Shown piece after piece: positions 4,387 to 17,000 of a stretch of DNA of 64,000 bases (position 1 is the first letter of the stretch; every line of letters starts with the position of its first letter). Both the position numbers and the translations under genes were made by a program. The stretch is taken from the NCBI GenBank assembly GCA_009599575.1, contig VWND01000008.1, positions 124,001 through 188,000 on the forward strand. The letters run 5' to 3'. A model generated the notes under the pieces. That model did not search any database. It saw only the letters and a program-made list of their open reading frames with translations, and had not been told where the DNA came from. The stretch is from Blumeriella jaapii. Lineage: Eukaryota > Ascomycota > Leotiomycetes > Helotiales > Drepanopezizaceae.

Positions 4387-5105
4387 GGCGTTGTAGCCGC
4401 GCTATTATATAAAATAAAAAAAATAAAAATTTCGTTTAGAATCGAAAATAACGTTTATAACTTACAACAAGCTGCCGTCGGCGTTAATAAAAACAAATAA
4501 TAAAAAAGAGTTTTCCTGCTCTGGAAAAAAATCGTTATAAGCAGATTTAAGCAAATTAATATAAAAAACGAAATATAATAGTTTTTGCTCGAAAAATAAT
4601 TTCAATTTATAATTATAAAAGCCTAAAACTTCGGCGATTTTGTAAAAATCGTAAAACTTATTATCGAGCTTTTTAATTAATCTGATAGAAATAATATTGC
4701 GCCTATTAAAAAAACACGCTATTTTTTATTCGATAAACAAAAACTAGTTGGAGGTATCGATTAAAATAATATTTTTGATCGGCCAGCGCTAAAATCAGAT
4801 TCGTACGTAATAATAATTTTTTTTTTTTTTTTTTTTTTTTTTGCAAAATCGTTTTTTTTTTCGCGTTTGCTATTTATAACGTGCGAAAAATCGAAACTAA
4901 AATAGATTTGAATAAAAAAAAGCTTAATCGAAAGTAAAAGCTTTTATTAGCGTAAAAAAGGAAAATTCCGGTAAAAGCGTTTATAGCGTTATTTGCTGCG
5001 AATTCGGCTAGAAAAAGCCAGTTTTCCCAATTTCCTTAAGCGTATTTAACAAATTGTCTTAAATACAAAAGTAAATAAGCGTTTGCGTTTTCGGTTTGGC
5101 CATTT
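4387..5105 (-). pseudogene. B1 integrase C-terminus and chromodomain
   Basis: The segment is colinear with 21398-22105 of B2, where the same strand encodes a readable integrase C-terminal module (PVKKLNNKFYDFYKIAEI, then HSYRLKLPFEQ) and a chromodomain-like stretch. In B1 it carries more stops. A run of about 25 T residues at 4817-4842 has expanded relative to B2. The segment stops at 5105, where F1 begins. Confidence 0.75.
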
Positions 5106-5134
5106 CCGTACGGCTTATCTAGGGTCGGATCACA

Positions 5135-5520
5135 ACCGATTATACCCGGTTGCAAAACGGAGTATACACCGATTATAATCGGTTTTTAAAACCGGGTATA
5201 CACCGATTGTAATCGGTTTTAAAAAAAAAACCGATTATACACCGATTATAATCGATTATACACCGATTATAACCGGTTTTAATTCGATTATAATCGATTA
5301 TAATCGGTTTTATAACCGATTATAATCGGTGTATAATCCGTTTTAAAACCGAATATAATCGGTTGCTAATCGGTGTTAACACCGAAGTGGCGCGGTTTAC
5401 TTTTACATCGATATGACGATTTAATACCGAATATAATCGGTAGTACCGAATATAATCGGTATTAATACCGATTATATTCGGTATTAATACCGATTATATT
5501 CGTTGTTAACACCGAAACAA
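5135..5520. repeat. Subterminal palindrome array, left end of F1
   Basis: More than fifteen overlapping variants of ACCGATTATAATCGGT occur, with forms such as CGATTATAATCG and ACCGAATATAATCGGT. Each is its own reverse complement or nearly so. About 390 bp is covered; a shorter version lies at the right end (about 7240-7330, with TAACTCGGATT and TAATCGG blocks). Arrays of subterminal motifs are where transposases of many DNA elements bind; that role is inferred here. Confidence 0.85.
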
Positions 5521-5637
5521 ATTTATACAACTAAATTAACTCGATATTTAATATATACCAAACTTTTCGAATTTAAATTAAAAATCTTATATTAAACCAC
5601 GTTTATTTAATATTATATTAAATAATATTTTCGCTAA

Positions 5638-7112
5638 CACTACCTCGCTGCTATTATTTCGCTGCTATCACCTCGCTGCCACCACCTCGCTGCCACCACC
5701 TCTCGCTGCCACCACCTCGCTGCCACCACCCTCGCTGCCACCACCTCGCTGCCACCACCATTACCACTACCACCACTATTACCACTATTACCACCACCAC
5801 CACCACTATCACCATTACCACCACCACTTCGCTGCTACCACCCTCGCTGCCACCACCTCGCTGCCACCACCTCGCTGCCACCATCTCGCTGCCACCACTT
5901 CGCTGCCACCACCTCGCTGCCATTACCACTACTATCACCATCACTACTACCACTACTACTACCACCACCTACCATCACTACCACTATTACCACCACTACC
6001 ACCCATTACTATCACTACTATTACTACCACCATTACCACTACTACCACCATTACTACCACTACCATCACTACCACTACTACCACCATTACTATTATTACT
6101 ACCATTATTATCACTACCACCATTATTTCGCTGCTACCACCTCGCTGCCACCATTTCGCTGCTATCACCTCGCTGCTATTATTATAATTACTCAGCTTAT
6201 TCGGCTGTTCGGCTATTCGGCTGTTCGGCTGTTCGGCTTTTCGTTATTTTTCTAGCAAAATAGTATTAGCGAAATAATAATAATAATAGTAATAATAATG
6301 GTGATAATAGTGATGGTAGTGGTAGTGATAGTAGTAGTGATAATAGTGGTAGTGGTGGTAATGGTGGTAGTAATAATAGTGGTGATAATAGTAATAATAG
6401 TAGTAATGGTGGTAGTAGTGGTAATAGTGGTAATGATAATAGTGGTAGTAGTGGTGGTAGTGATAGTAGTGGTGGTAATGGTGGTAATGGTGGTAATGGT
6501 GGTAATGGTGGTAATGGTGGTAATGGTAGTAGTAGTGATAGTAATAGTAATAGTGGGGTAGTAGTAGTGGTAGTGGTGGTGGTGGTGGTAGTGGTGGTAG
6601 TGGTGGCAGCGAGATGGTAGCAGCGAAGTGATAGCAGCGAAGTGGTGGCAGCGAGGTGGTGGCAGCGAGGTGGTGGCAGCGAGGTGGTGGTGGTAGTAGT
6701 GATAATAGTAATAGTGGTGGTAATAATAATATATAGTAGTAATAATAATGGTAGTGATAGCGACGAGATGGTAGCAGCGAGGTGATAGCAGCGAGGTGGT
6801 GGCAGCGAGGTGGTGGCAGCGAGATGGTAGTAGCGACGAAATAGTGGCAGCGAGGTGATAGCAGCGAGGTGGTGGCAGCGAGGTGGTGGCAGCGAGATGG
6901 TAGTGGTAATAGTGATAATAATGGTGGTGGTGGTAATAGTGGTAATGGTGGTAATAATAATAATGATAATAGCGACGAGGTGGTGGCAACGAAATGATGG
7001 GTAGTAATGATAATAGTAATGGTGGTGATAATAATGGTAATAGTGGTAATAATAATGGTAATAGTAGTGGTGGTAATAGTGGTGGCGACAAGATAGTGGC
7101 AGCGAGGTGGTG
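5638..7112. repeat. Inverted triplet-repeat core of F1
   Basis: The left arm (5638-6182) is made of CCA/CTA/TTA triplets and the 15-bp unit CTCGCTGCCACCACC. The right arm (6260-7112) is the inverse, GGT/AGT/AAT triplets and GGTGGTGGCAGCGAG. Because the units are multiples of 3, long open frames appear on both strands (for example 6252-7091, 6266-7192 and 5654-5968), but they encode only runs such as VVVMVI or WWQRGGGSE and are not genes. Variation within triplets is almost purely G/A on the right arm and C/T on the left, as RIP would leave. Confidence 0.85.
6190..6280. repeat. Centre of F1: 8-bp tandem repeat TTCGGCTG and hinge
   Basis: Between the two arms are five to six copies of TTCGGCTG or TTCGGCTA (about 6200-6245). 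They are followed by a short unique piece containing CTAGCAAAATAGTATTAGCG. The same centre is at 9958-10035 in F2. The final GTATTAGCGAAATAAT is an inverted copy of the start of the left arm (5620-5640), so the left arm is itself bounded by inverted sequences. Confidence 0.75.
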
Positions 7113-7349
7113 TTAATAAAAGCGTTGATAAAAAGTAATAACAAATTCGTATAAGATTTGTATTTTTCTCGAAGCTTTAAATTATTACACAACCTATCGT
7201 ATTTATTAATCTTTAATAATACTAAAATTAATTTTTATTTAATCGCGTGTTAACTCTGATTATACTCGGAGTTAATTTTTTATTAAGTGTTAACTCGGAT
7301 TTGACTCGGTGTCAAATCGGTTGTAATCCCACCCAAAGGCGCCCCTAAA

Positions 7350-8699
7350 TTGTTTCGAAATAAAAGCTGGTGAATAACGTAATATTGGTTCCGAAACGGT
7401 AATTAATAACTTTTCAAAATTGTAAAACGAATAAAAAGCCTCGGTTTAAAACTATAAAATCGAGAAAACCATATAAGCGCTAAATATTTTTACAAAACAG
7501 CTTGGCTAAATCTGACGCTTTTATAACTAAGTAGCAGGCTGTATAATATCGTTTTTTAATAAAGCGATATATTATTATTATAATCAGATTGTTTCGACTT
7601 TTATGCTTTTTTACAAGAAAAAAGCTTATAAAATCGACTGATATATAATTTCAACGGCGTAAAAAAATAGGCAAAAATTTGAAAAATCTTTGGTAGCGTT
7701 AATTAATGCTTGTATTACGAAAACAGCCGTTGCAATTGCGTATAAATCTTTTGCAATTCTTAAAAATTAATAACTAATAATAATTTCTGCTAATAATCTC
7801 GTACAATTTGTTTTTTCCGGAATGGCCTGTTTTTATTAAATTATAAGCTATTTGCAAAAGCCAGGTGCGAATAAGAATATCTAAACTCGATATATTTAAA
7901 ACGTATAATCGGTTTCGAAAATACAATTTATTATTGCGTATAAAGCATTCGGAAAATTATAAGTTTTTTAATTTCGAAATATTTTTTGGTTTAAGCATTT
8001 TTTTTTGATAGCAATCTATAGCTTATTAATAAAATAATATTCGTTTAATGATCGTAAAAGCTTTTCGTCGTTTGCCTCGGGTATTTATTTAAATAAAGCT
8101 GGAAAAGCGTTTAAAAAAAAAAAAAAAAAACTTCAGTTTTTAAATAATATTTCTTAAAAAAAGCTTGGTTTTGGAACTAAATCCTTTCGTTTTAAAAAGT
8201 CCTGAGGAAGATTTTAAAGAACGTCGGATTAAAAAAATCAGATTTGCCACTTTGTTTTTCCAGGTTTGAATATAATTACGAAATCAAAACCAGCTAAAAA
8301 CTCGCTCTAGCGTATTTAACGTCGGTTAAATTATTTAATTATTATAAAATATTTTAAATTTCGATAGTTTATAAATATACGAATTGAATAAACAGCTTTT
8401 TGTAATTCGGCTCGCCAATTTTCGAAGCAACGTATAATAGCGAAAAGTTTTTTTATTATAAATTTCATAATTGCATTCGGCTAAATCGAACTTTTTTTAA
8501 TATAAACGCGACTGGATAAAACATTTTTATATCGTTTTTTTAAAAAAGAATTCCTGAAAAAACGTAATCAAAAGCGTCAGTTTCAACGAAAATCTTTTTA
8601 TCAAAATTAAAATAAAAAAATATAAGTGCAATAATAAAAATTAATTTAAAAAAATTGGAAAGCCTTAATACAATTATTATTAAAATCCTATTTTTAATA
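7350..8699 (-). pseudogene. B1 integrase core and zinc domain, RNase H start
   Basis: The segment is colinear with 22106-23463 of B2. Integrase lies in the left half. Near 8540-8600 the minus strand reads FVETDAFDYVFSGILF, the RNase H first block (ETDAS-like) with its catalytic Asp intact. The 74-codon frame 8540-8764 that contains it begins inside F2, so its first residues are not part of the protein. The copy has many stops and an A-run near 8110. F2 interrupts it at 8699. Confidence 0.78.
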
Positions 8700-8727
8700 C
8701 CGTACGGCTTATCTAGGGTCGGATCAC

Positions 8728-9190
8728 AACCGATTATACCCGGTTGCAAAACCGGGGTATACACCGATTATAATCGGTTTTAAAACCGGGTATACACCGA
8801 TTGTAATCGGTTTCAAAACCGATTATACACCGATTATAATCGATTATAAACCGATTATAATCGATTATACACCGATTATAACCGGTTTTTAATTCGATTA
8901 TAATCGATTATAATCGGTTTTAAAACCGATTGTAATCGGTGTATAATCGGTTTTAAAACCGGGTATAATCGGTTGCTAATCGGTGTCAATACCGAAGTGG
9001 CGCGGTTTACTCTTACATCGATGTAACGATTTAACACCGAGTATAATCGGTGTTAACACCGAATATAATCGGTATTAAGTGTTAACACCGAATATAATCG
9101 GTATTAAGTGTTAACACCGAATATAATCGGTATTAATACCGATTATATTCGGTGTTAACACCGATTATACTCGGTGTTAACACCGAAACA
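8728..9190. repeat. Subterminal palindrome array, left end of F2
   Basis: Repeated variants of ACCGATTATAATCGGT are present, plus a direct triplication of TTAACACCGAATATAATCGG at about 9050-9135. A short counterpart lies at the right end (about 10810-10895). This F2 array is longer than in F1 because of the triplication. Confidence 0.83.
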
Positions 9191-9309
9191 AATCTATACA
9201 ATTAAATTAAATCGATATTTAATATATACCAAATCTTTTCGAATTTAAATTAAAATTTTTATATTAAACTACGTTTATTTAATACTACACTTAATAATAT
9301 TTTCGCTAA

Positions 9310-10685
9310 CATTATTTCGCTGCCACCATTTCGCTGCTATCACCTCGCTGCCACCACCTCGCTGCCACCACCTCGCTGCCACCACCTCGCTGCCACCACC
9401 TCGCTGCCACCACCTCGCTGCCACCACCTCGCTGCCACCACCCTCGTCCGCCACCACTATCACTATCACTATTATTACCACCATTACCATTATTACCACC
9501 ACTACCACCACCACCACCACTATTACTACTACTATCATCACCTCGCTGCCACCACCTCGCTGCCACCACCTCGCTGCCACCACCTCGCTGCCACCACCTC
9601 GCTGCTACCACCTCGTCGCCACCACCACCACCACCACTATACCATTATTACCACCACTACCACCACCACCATCATTATTACCACTACTACCATCACCTCG
9701 CTGCCACCCCCACCTCGCACGCTCTCTTCCCACCATCTCGCTGCCACCACCTCGTCGCCACCACCATCATCACCATTATCACCATTACCACCACTACTAC
9801 CACCACCATTACTATTACCACTATTACCATCACCTCGCTGCCATCAATTCGCTGCCACCACCTCGCTGCCATTATCTCGTCGCCACCACCACCATTACTA
9901 TCATCACCATTATTATTATTATTACCACCACCTTTTTGCCAGTATTATAATTACCCAGCTTATTCGGCTGTTCGGCTATTCGGCTGTTCGGCTGTTCGGC
10001 TTTTCGTTATTTTTCTAGCAAAATAGTATTAGCGAAATAATAATAATAATAATGGTGGTAGTAGTAGTAATAGTGGTAGTGATAATAGTGGTGGTAGTGG
10101 TGGTAATGGTGGTAGTGGTGGTAGTGGTGGTGGTGGTGGTGGCGACGAGGTGATGGTAGCGAGGTGGTGGCAGCGAGGTGGTGGCAGCGAGGTGGTGGCA
10201 GCGAGGTGGTGGCAGCGAGGTGATGGGTAGTAGTGGTAATAATAATGGTGGTGGTGGTAGTGGTGGTAATAGTGGTAGTGGTGGTGGTGGTGGTGGTGGT
10301 GGTGGCGACGAGGTGGTAGCAGCGAGGTGGTGGCAGCGAGGTGGTGGCGACGAGGTGGTGGCAGCGAGGTGGTGGCAGCGAGGTGGTGGCAGCGAAGTGG
10401 TGGCAGCGAGGTGGTGGCAGCAAAATAATAGTAGTAGTAGTGATGGTGGTGGTAATAATAGTAATGGTGGTAGTAGTGATAGTAATAGTAATGGTGGTAA
10501 TGGTAGTAGCGACGAGGTGATAGTAATAATAGTGGTAGTAATGGTAGTGATAATAGTCGTGGTGGTGGTAGTAGCGACGAGGTGGTGGCAGCGAGGTGGT
10601 GATAGTAGTGGTGGTAGTGGTGGTGGTGGTGGTGGTGGCAGCGAGGTGGTGGCAGCGAGGTGGTGGCAGCGAGGTGGTGTTAATA
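9310..10685. repeat. Inverted triplet-repeat core of F2
   Basis: The left arm (9310-9940) is rich in CTCGCTGCCACCACC and the right arm (10030-10680) in GGTGGTGGCAGCGAG, around the same TTCGGCTG centre (9958-10005). The open frames 9275-9583, 9312-9611, 10007-10789 and 10178-10705 are products of the triplet period, not genes. Confidence 0.85.
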
Positions 10686-10916
10686 AAAGCGTTGATAAAG
10701 TGTAATAACAAATTCGTATAAGATTTGTATTTTTCTCGAAGCTTTGAATTTTTATACAACTTATCGTATCTATTAATTTTTAATAACACTAAGATTAATT
10801 TTCAATTAATCGCGTGTTAACTCTGATTATACTCGGAGTTAATTTTACGCCAAGTGTTAACTCGGATTTGACTCGGTGTTGAATCGGTTGTAATCCCATC
10901 CACAGGCGCCCCTAAG

Positions 10917-12560
10917 TATCTTTTTTTCGTTTAAATTTACCTAAAAAGTAATAATGCGAAAAAAAACCTTTAATAAAACGTCGGTAGAAATTTGCAAAAC
11001 ATAAAAACGCTTATACGTTTTTAACGTTAAAAAAAAGGTTTCAACTAGTAATAGCTTCCAACTTTTTAAAGTTTATTTTAATTCTAATAATAAAAATAAT
11101 TATTTTTAAATAAACGACTTTTTAAACTTCAAATTCGCATTTTTTTATATTTAATTGCAGGCCAGCGTCGGAAAAAGCTTAAAAAACGAAATTAACGTAT
11201 TTTTTATATTTTTAAAAATCGTTTAAATAAACTAAAATATCGTTTATATAAACTATACAAAAAATATCTAAATAAAATCGTAAAATATCGTTTATGCGAA
11301 ATTGAAAAATGGCAAAAGCGTTGCATAAACCGAAAAACATAACTAACGATTCGAATAAACCGTATTTCGTATTAAACGCAATAAGCTATTTATAACCCTT
11401 TTTTATTCGAATCTTATTAAAAACGGCAAAAACGTTAAGTTTAATATAAAACTTCGCTTTACTTAATCGAAAAAGTATTTTTTAAACTAATAGCAAAAAA
11501 TACCGGTTTTTGATTATTATAACGTTAAAAACTTTATAATCGACGCAAAAACGTAATTCGCTTCCTGGCTTTTTCGCAAATAAAACTGGAAAGGCGGCGG
11601 AAAAAAAGCTAGCTCGAATCCAACTTTTTTCGAAGTTTTTTTTCAAAAACTTGCGTAAAACTTAAAGTTCGTCAACTGATATATTATACAAAAAACCGTA
11701 TAAAGGTATTACGCTAAAACGAAGTTTTATCGTATAATTAACGCTTTTTTTATAAATCGCAAATTTATCAATTTTAATAAAATCGAAAGCGGCCAAATAA
11801 TAATAGTAATATTAAAAGAATTTTATTCGAAAGTCGATTAGCGGTTTAATTTAAAAAGCCAAACGAATATTTTTTAAAAAAACTTTAGCGAAATAAAATT
11901 CAGCTGATAAATATTATCGTTCAGCTTAAAAGAGTTTTCGTCGTAACTAGTTTATTTTTAATAATACAAAATTAGGATCGTTTTTAATTATAACGCCGAA
12001 TTTTTATAAACGTTAATCGATTTCGTATAATAAAACTGAAAATACTTCGATTCCGAACTAAAAAAATAAAATATTAAAAACAGCAGCTTTTGTACGGCGA
12101 CAAAAAGCTAATTAAACAATTAACTTATAAAAATAGCGTTTTTAGACTAAATCTAAAACAGCCAATTAATAAAAGTTCTGGAATAAACAATTAGAACGGC
12201 AAAAGTCTGAATTAAAACAAAAAGTATTCGTAATTTAATTAATATAAATATTGTGTATTTTAAGCTAAAATTTGCTTAAAATAAAATCGTATTTTCTTAA
12301 TATTATAATAAAAGCTGTAACTCGTTCGGTATAACGAGCGATATTAATTTAAAAAAAATTTAATAAATAACGTCGCCGTAAATAGAAAAACGTTCGTCAA
12401 CCACGGTAAATTTACGTAAATTAATAAGTAAAACAAAGGTCAATTCGTAATATTACACGAAGAAATAATTAATAAAATTATCGGTAGCTCCGAAATCGTT
12501 TAAAAAGTAAGTTTTAATATATATACCATTAATAATTATAATACAAAATAATATTAAATA
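10917..12560 (-). pseudogene. B1 pol: RNase H remainder, reverse transcriptase, protease
   Basis: The segment is colinear with B2 23464-25150. The reverse transcriptase region (about 10960-11900) and protease region (about 12400-12560) align with B2 but contain frequent stops. In B2 the palm box reads YIND and the protease reads LNDSEAT. The frame 12560-12775 lies on the opposite strand and is a by-product. Confidence 0.75.
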
Positions 12561-15639: not shown

Positions 15640-17000
15640 AAAAACTTTTATTTTATATTCGATTGCAAAATCGTATTCAGCTAGCTCGTCGGCCTATTTC
15701 GCTTAGCGTCCGTTTAAACGTTTTTTCGTAAAAAAATATTTCAAATTATAATAATTTGTACGTATAATAATAACGTCGGAAGCGCTACGTAAATATTAGC
15801 TTTATTATTTAAAAGCGTAAATTATAATTATTAATTCAGCGTCGTAAACCTCGTATTTTTGTTTTATAAAAAAAAGCTTTTTCGAATAATACGCGATAAA
15901 ATACTAACGTATTTTCGCACTTTCTCCGAATAATTAAAATAATATTCCGCTTATAACGAATTTGGAAGCGTTTGTTTCGACTTGGATTTTTAATCGAAAA
16001 TCGAAATAACGTAAAATCGGTGCTTAGCAAAACTTTTTTTTTAAAAATAAAAAAGCGACTTTCGCTTCGAATAAAAAACGAAAAAAGCTCGATATTTTTT
16101 TTCGTTGCATTTTTTTTTAAAAAATCTATAATAAGTCGGCAAAGCTTAACGTAATTTTTAATAAAACGTTTGTAAAAATTAATAAAACCCAAAAACATTT
16201 AAATATTTCGTTATATAATAAAAAAAAGCTATTTCCGAATATTATTTACTTTTTCTAGATTTATTTTAATTTTCGTAAAAATAACGACGAAGCCTAGAAA
16301 CTCAACCGTATTCGTATCGAAAGCATATTTTTTCAGATTTTCGTAAAGTTTATTAATACGAAATCTTTCGAAAATCTTTTTTACCGCGTTTGTATAATCG
16401 TCGAAGTTTTCGAAAAATATTAAAATATCGTCGAAGTAAATTATATACGTAATATTTATTAAACCGATTAAAACTTAATTAATATACGTTTGGAAAATTG
16501 CTAATGCGTTTGAAAAGCCGAAAAGTAATACGTAATACTCGAAGTATTCGTAACGAATGCGAAACGCAGTTTTCTATTTATTTCCTTTTTTTATTCGAAA
16601 ACGGTAGTACGCCCAAATAAAATTTAGCTTAGTAAATATTTTAGCTTTTTTTAAACGATTCAAAATTTCGCTTATAAAAAATAAAAAAGTTCGATTCTTA
16701 ACCGTAATTGCGTTTAAACTCTTATAATCGACGCATAATCGTAAACTTCCGTTTTTTTTCGGTATAAATATTACCGATGCGCCGGCAAAGCTAATAGAGT
16801 TTTTTTTTATCCAGCTTTTTTTTAAGCTCGAATCGAAATATTCGCGTAATTCGGTGAATTTAAATTTCGACAAAAAATAAACTAATTCCCAAAAAAAATC
16901 CTTTTTTTCCGCGAGATTTATTCGATATTTTATAAAATAATAAAAAGCTAAAATAACCGCGGCGGTATCGTCAAACATATCGGCGTAATCGTCGTATTTA
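15640..17000 (-). pseudogene. A3 reverse transcriptase and RNase H
   Basis: The open frame 16574-16978 (134 codons) carries the RT fingers and palm: [16 protein letters not shown], then FTKLNFIWAYYRFR, where the catalytic Asp of TKLD is now Asn. The second palm box is YFDD at 16427-16438, intact. The connection LGFINFYKRFI and following segment are in 15836-16198. RNase H in its own frame follows to about 15640. Domain order and spacing are those of Ty3/gypsy pol. This is the longest readable RT piece of family A. Confidence 0.87.

Follow-up and report, generated by a model that had tools for sequence, protein, structure and literature searches.

The window analysed here, a 64,000-nucleotide stretch of the Blumeriella jaapii genome (contig C8, VWND01000008.1, positions 124001-188000, in a 47.4-Mb assembly of 91 contigs), contains two complete copies of a foldback element, designated F1 (2244 bp at 5106-7349) and F2 (2217 bp at 8700-10916). 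The family to which they belong, designated F, is most probably a family of non-autonomous cut-and-paste DNA transposons which are moved by a transposase supplied in trans, have a strong preference for TA and lie in centromere-like blocks (a probability of roughly 0.83 is assigned to this reading). A first-pass annotation of the window had proposed a non-autonomous DNA transposon with a foldback core, and this was supported by the recurrence of the same ends, 2-bp target duplications, independent insertions and empty sites; its coordinates and lengths for F1 and F2 were found to be exact. Features are given below in window coordinates.

5104-5105, plus strand: left-hand TT target duplication of F1 (empty sites near 22.11 and 38.39 kb)
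5106-7349, plus strand: F1, complete foldback element, 2244 bp
5106-5141, plus strand: F1 left terminal inverted repeat, core GGGTCGGATCACAACCGATT from 16 bp inside
5106-5560, plus strand: F1 left subterminal palindrome array, ACCGATTATAATCGGT type (z -15.3)
5635-6179, plus strand: F1 left foldback arm, made of the 14-bp minisatellite together with ACC triplets
6190-6260, plus strand: F1 conserved centre with TTCGGCTG repeats (98.6% to F2)
6270-7114, minus strand: F1 right foldback arm, inverted relative to the left arm
7315-7349, minus strand: F1 right terminal inverted repeat, core from 15 bp inside, terminal A for the usual G
7350-7351, plus strand: TT target duplication, right of F1
8698-8699, plus strand: left-hand TA target duplication of F2 (empty sites near 23.46 and 46.19 kb)
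8700-10916, plus strand: F2, complete foldback element, 2217 bp
8700-8735, plus strand: F2 left terminal inverted repeat
9307-9942, plus strand: F2 left foldback arm
9953-10023, plus strand: F2 conserved centre
10033-10681, minus strand: F2 right foldback arm, inverted relative to the left arm
10882-10916, minus strand: F2 right terminal inverted repeat
10917-10918, plus strand: TA target duplication, right of F2

The genome was searched with the ends of the element, as the first-pass annotation had advised, and the same ends were found to recur. The left end (a 25-base pattern, with up to 3 mismatches) was present at 75 places, 66 of them without a mismatch, and the right-end pattern at 69; reversed-pattern controls gave 0 places for both. 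Left and right ends on the same strand combined into 54 pairs, 53 of which span 1.64-4.56 kb (median 2.29 kb), the remaining one spanning 8.8 kb. A left-end search at up to 2 mismatches gave 86 places, those with two mismatches being accepted only after inspection of their sequence, as the reversed control gave 14. When a heavily decayed copy served as query, 81 candidates came up at first look and 40 of them were scored; 38 were left ends already known and two were additional old copies (C16:13205 and C67:9578), whose ends had also come up in the left-end search at up to 2 mismatches, and this brings the family to at least 77 copies with a left end. There were no matches to the F left end in the viral and prokaryote sequence collections, nor any Rfam match in the window at the gathering threshold. 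Among the 75 places is a derivative of about 690 bp (C41:58335-59025) in which left ends stand at both sides, facing each other and flanked by TA; this suggests either that the left end can work at both sides or that inverted duplication happens at one end.

F1 and F2 are inserted in a single copy of a dispersed, decayed repeat (designated repeat B), which looks like a retroelement. Other repeat B copies in the window, 80-85% identical, provide empty sites for F1 (at about 22.11 and 38.39 kb) and for F2 (at about 23.46 and 46.19 kb), and each of these carries the duplicated pair once, which together with the matched flanks bears out the first-pass claims that F1 and F2 are bordered by TT and TA duplications and that uninterrupted repeat copies can serve as empty sites. 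That annotation had also called for the duplications to be tabulated across the genome. A matching dinucleotide was found on both flanks in 53 of the 54 pairs (48 TA, 3 TT, 1 AA and 1 CG), the remaining pair having TA on one side and TT on the other, so that the 2-bp duplication was consistent and the proposal was not refuted. The duplication reached 3 bp in only one of the 53. All 54 left flanks and all 54 right flanks were distinct, so that the 54 are separate insertions and the 2-bp duplication is real. Because five matched pairs are not TA, it is a duplication and not a terminal TA fixed in the element. In a subset of 38 left junctions, TA was found at 32, compared to a TA frequency of 11.7% in those flanks (P about 2e-24). 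The base adjoining the right-hand duplication was G in 52 of the 54 pairs and A in two, and a weak palindromic target preference was observed over 53 sites, with A two bases before the dinucleotide in 49% and T two bases after it in 62%.

Two further observations concern insertion sites. The two strongly C-to-T decayed old copies, on C16 (13.7 kb) and C67 (10 kb), have a common flank, and one of them therefore probably arose from the other by segmental duplication. The insertion at C12:186449 and the insertion shared by C16 and C67 have near-identical flanking sequence and, by eye, are apparently 2 bp apart; a hot spot is possible.

The first-pass annotation had described the ends as imperfectly inverted, and this held for an inner core in particular. 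The left end reads CCGTACGGCTTATCTAGGGTCGGATCACAACCGATT and the right end, reversed, CTTAGGGGCGCCTGTGGGTGGGATTACAACCGATT; the outermost left end is CCGTACGGCTTATC, the matching core lying deeper, and the description had to be refined accordingly, the outer 15 bp being poorly matched. Over the 20-base core, which starts 16 bases in on the left and 15 bases in on the right, the two ends match at 18 of 20 positions, a match equalled in 0 of 2000 shuffles. The core pattern (up to one mismatch) occurred at 133 places in the genome, with none for the control; all of the 100 places listed were at known F ends, and no separate family carrying the core was present among these 100.

From left to right, F consists of a palindrome array, an AT-rich unique stretch, a left arm, a conserved centre, a right arm, a second AT-rich unique stretch and the right end. 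The first 455 bp of F1 gave a folding z of -15.3 (0 of 100 dinucleotide shuffles as good). F1 as a whole gave a folding energy of -614.6 kcal/mol and 555 pairs spanning the centre, compared to -228.1 kcal/mol and 94 pairs for one mononucleotide shuffle, and F2 gave -759.2 kcal/mol and 586 pairs, compared to -251.5 kcal/mol and 144 pairs for one shuffle. The foldback core that had been proposed is thus well founded, and F possesses the hallmark of foldback elements, namely long inverted repeats which are repetitive internally and can fold back on themselves. The inverted repeat had been called triplet-built; the large inverted arms are present as described, and are built of a 14-bp minisatellite (TCGCTGCCACCACC) and its reverse complement in addition to ACC/GGT triplets. 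The centre is 98.6% identical between F1 and F2, and was recognised in 18 of 19 whole copies at a mean identity of 95.0%, with none recognisable in the nineteenth. In 16 copies (one without a recognisable centre and two with nested inserts being omitted from the 19) the left arm measured about 177-907 bp, its boundary being set by default in several of them, and the right arm 587-1229 bp. Comparison of each left arm with its own reversed right arm gave a mean score of 430, against 344 for the right arms of other copies and 57 for shuffled triplets. Homogenisation between the two arms of a copy was considered and rejected, as the difference between 430 and 344, with a mean rank of 5.25 of 16 for the own right arm, was too weak.

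Across the 19 copies, mean identity was 94.8% over the left 330 bp and 92.0% over the right 245 bp. Relative to the majority base, C-to-T and G-to-A together accounted for 99 of 176 changes on the left and 132 of 244 on the right, and CpG was seldom hit (2 of 99 on the left; on the right, 5 of the 130 with a neighbour). The C-to-T decay differs from copy to copy, and the two old copies on C16 and C67 have, by eye, minisatellite units CTGCTATTATT where others have CTGCCACCACC. As such changes dominate and the old copies show decayed units, much of the triplet variety in the arms is probably the product of C-to-T decay. The pattern is one that we take to resemble repeat-induced point mutation (RIP), sparing CpG.

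The 75 left ends lie on 20 contigs and, on each contig, within a single interval no wider than 216 kb (on 6 of these contigs there is one left end only). All 177 of the same-contig F pairs lie within 220 kb, a limit picked after the widest block was known; for 9 of these pairs the contig itself is shorter than 220 kb, and the test is empty there. The corresponding values were 11 of 28 pairs for repeat B (the 40 scored of 162 candidates, query included) and 1 of 16 for Tc1 (24 matches), and 16 of the 19 scored repeat B copies on F-bearing contigs were outside the F block by more than 20 kb. The confinement is not explained by AT-richness alone, because contig C65 has AT-rich stretches that hold no F (21-32% GC in 8 of 8 samples of 300 bases at 960-1090 kb and in 7 of 7 at 700-755 kb). 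One of the two additional old copies fits the C16 block; the other adds contig C67, 10 kb from the contig end, and many F blocks are near contig ends. The blocks are possibly centromeres, with the qualification that contigs may not equal chromosomes. In the window, a short frame at 16574-16978 and other short frames appear by eye to be reverse-transcriptase-like, amid decayed AT-rich repeat DNA. Elsewhere in the assembly, equal-scoring RNA polymerase subunit matches, each with one TAA, were observed at C49:7828-8706 and C11:65136-66014, perhaps an assembly duplicate.

The first-pass annotation had reported a lack of coding in both copies, and the frames of at least 100 amino acids in F1 and F2 were indeed low-complexity. 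No transposase was seen in F, the paired copies having been read whole in 20 of 54 cases, in part in 19 and at the ends only in 15, with frames examined in F1, F2 and L199. Sixteen of 17 whole copies lacking nested inserts consist of family sequence throughout (by shared 10-base words); the exception, at C12:97790, has 315 unmatched bases. The longer relative with F ends and a transposase gene, for which the same annotation had suggested a search, was not found, with 20 of the 54 pairs read whole. Four paired copies exceed 2.83 kb, all explained by nested insertions. Three of them, on C17, C91 and C8, were read whole. In the 3.5-kb copy on C17 a DNA element of about 1.2 kb is nested, and the one of 3.5 kb on C91 holds an element with, by eye, the ends of a resident Fot1. 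The 8.8-kb copy on C8 contains a nested insert interpreted as a long terminal repeat (LTR) element, which has direct repeats about 208 bp long (94.7% alike), and the 4.56-kb pair on C5 (read all but about 520 bases) encloses another F. A candidate end of a giant element at C14:42837 was also rejected, its right end being cut off by sequence that by eye is unrelated and retroelement-like. The element nested in the C17 copy (about positions 498-1729 of that copy) has GGTGATTATGTCCCAAAAACA ends and is seemingly a separate non-autonomous family.

Several points weigh against the interpretation of F as a TA-preferring, trans-mobilised transposon of centromere-like blocks. Five matched duplications that are not TA would be unexpected from a strict TA-cutting enzyme, and only 5 of the 15 outermost positions agree between the two ends, which is unusual for a terminal-inverted-repeat transposon. 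Of the paired copies, 34 of 54 are known in part or at their ends only; an autonomous partner was not found via the left end, the right end, the core or the longest copies; and no excision or current movement of F was observed. The telomere repeat (TTAGGG)4 gave 0 matches in the assembly, compared to 3 for the reversed control (GGGATT)4, and chromosome arms are unmappable.

In the proposed mechanism, a transposase supplied in trans would bind the core GGGTSGGATYACAACCGATT, which lies about 16 bp inside either end, and perhaps also the repeated palindromes, as extra sites; the latter is proposed by analogy with Galileo of Drosophila, whose internal repeats carry extra transposase sites that the enzyme is said to bind in the available portion of PMC4079207. 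A 2-bp staggered cut would be made at a preferred TA and the element pasted in, after which the minisatellite arms would grow and shrink between copies and be decayed by RIP-like mutation. Confinement could result if F hops over short range among centromeres that cluster in the nucleus, if the transposase is attracted to centromeric chromatin, or if copies elsewhere have been lost.

Candidates for the superfamily are Tc1/mariner-like elements, PHISTA and something unrecognised. Within the transposon reading, it is plausible, at rather less than even odds, that another 2-bp-duplicating superfamily (PHISTA, Plavaka or CMC) or an undescribed transposase moves F. The available text of PMC12730594 describes TA duplications for fungal PHISTA (PHIS transposons of rust fungi) and 2-bp duplications for Plavaka, and non-TA duplications are present in F. 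The Plavaka termini given there (TGT..ACA or CATCA..TGATG) are unlike the F ends, which run CCGT..TAAG. PHISTA has in common with F the TA duplication (48 of 54) but is defined by its transposase, and none was seen in F, with 20 of the 54 pairs read whole. For ISL2EU, also a PHIS element, a 5'-AT-3' duplication within A|AT|T is reported in PMC4482050, and an AT duplication was found in 0 of the 54 F pairs. It is suggested, tentatively, that an undescribed transposase with a 2-bp cut and a relaxed TA preference moves the hairpin-bodied F almost only between centromeres.

It is unlikely that F is a plain non-autonomous Tc1/mariner (IS630) family moved by a resident Tc1 or Fot1 transposase. Tc1/mariner transposases cut at TA, and fungal members and miniature inverted-repeat transposable elements (MITEs) have a TA duplication and terminal inverted repeats, according to the sections available of PMC4188875; F resembles these in its terminal inverted repeats and, for 48 of 54 pairs, in the TA duplication, and differs from the fungal elements described there in its foldback body, its imperfect outer ends and the matched dinucleotides other than TA that flank 5 of the 54 copies. 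Potential sources of enzyme are present in the genome (24 DDE_3 and 5 DDE_1 matches, some without internal stops). However, the Tc1 matches are dispersed while F is clustered, and the F ends are unlike the resident ends with which they were compared. Clear ends were visible in 5 of 10 fetched transposase loci, and for the five end strings compared, of three types (other resident families lying outside the comparison), at least 650 of 2000 shuffles were as good in all ten comparisons; no terminal inverted repeats shared with resident Tc1 or Fot1 were found within this set.

Assignment to the Helitron/Helentron rolling-circle group is very improbable: Helentrons have asymmetric termini and A/T-rich targets, as does F, but rolling-circle insertion leaves no target duplication, and this possibility is largely refuted by the 2-bp duplications that 53 of the 54 pairs show, TT, AA and CG among them. 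Equally improbable is that F does not move and is a centromere repeat multiplied through recombination and segmental duplication, which would fit the strict clustering per contig and the common flank of the old copies on C16 and C67 but not the distinct flanks of all 54 pairs, the precise duplications in 53, the empty sites of F1 and F2, or the F copy inserted within another F on C5; segmental duplication is thus refuted as the main route and may have acted on some copies.

The transposon reading of F can be set beside known foldback elements. Like Tm1, Tetris and Galileo, as presented in the available parts of PMC3169594 and PMC4079207, F has long internally repetitive inverted repeats, non-autonomous members and a variable structure. 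Tm1 (nematodes, Mutator/Phantom) and Tetris (Drosophila) make 8-10-bp target duplications according to the same sources, whereas F duplicates 2 bp, and the long repeats of these elements are terminal, whereas F has short, imperfect inverted ends and carries its large inverted arms in the interior.

With regard to location, the closest parallel is VdLTRE9 of Verticillium dahliae, for which the portion available of PMC7482064 reports 90-95% of copies at centromeres, shown by CenH3 ChIP (chromatin immunoprecipitation) and Hi-C, with each chromosome of strain VdLs17 having a single such AT-rich region some 150 kb long. The single AT-rich block of F per contig resembles these regional centromeres, the F blocks being known from sequence alone; VdLTRE9 is, in that account, an LTR retrotransposon, whereas F has the hallmarks of a DNA transposon. 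The first-pass statement that no known family combines these features was upheld within the open-access literature searched, with Repbase and Dfam outside that scope: the left-end 14-mer was absent from the papers searched, the right-end 11-mer was found only in papers on unrelated subjects, and neither a 2-bp foldback nor a centromere-bound fungal DNA transposon was present among the literature matches listed.

A foldback element which duplicates 2 bp and prefers TA would mean that the foldback shape has arisen anew, on a different enzyme, Tm1 being associated with a Mutator-type enzyme in the sources cited above. Confinement to one stretch per contig is unusual for this kind of element and is invisible from the window alone. 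If the blocks are centromeres, F would be their sequence marker in a decayed genome, and would also be a test case for centromere confinement of a cut-and-paste element rather than of an LTR retrotransposon.

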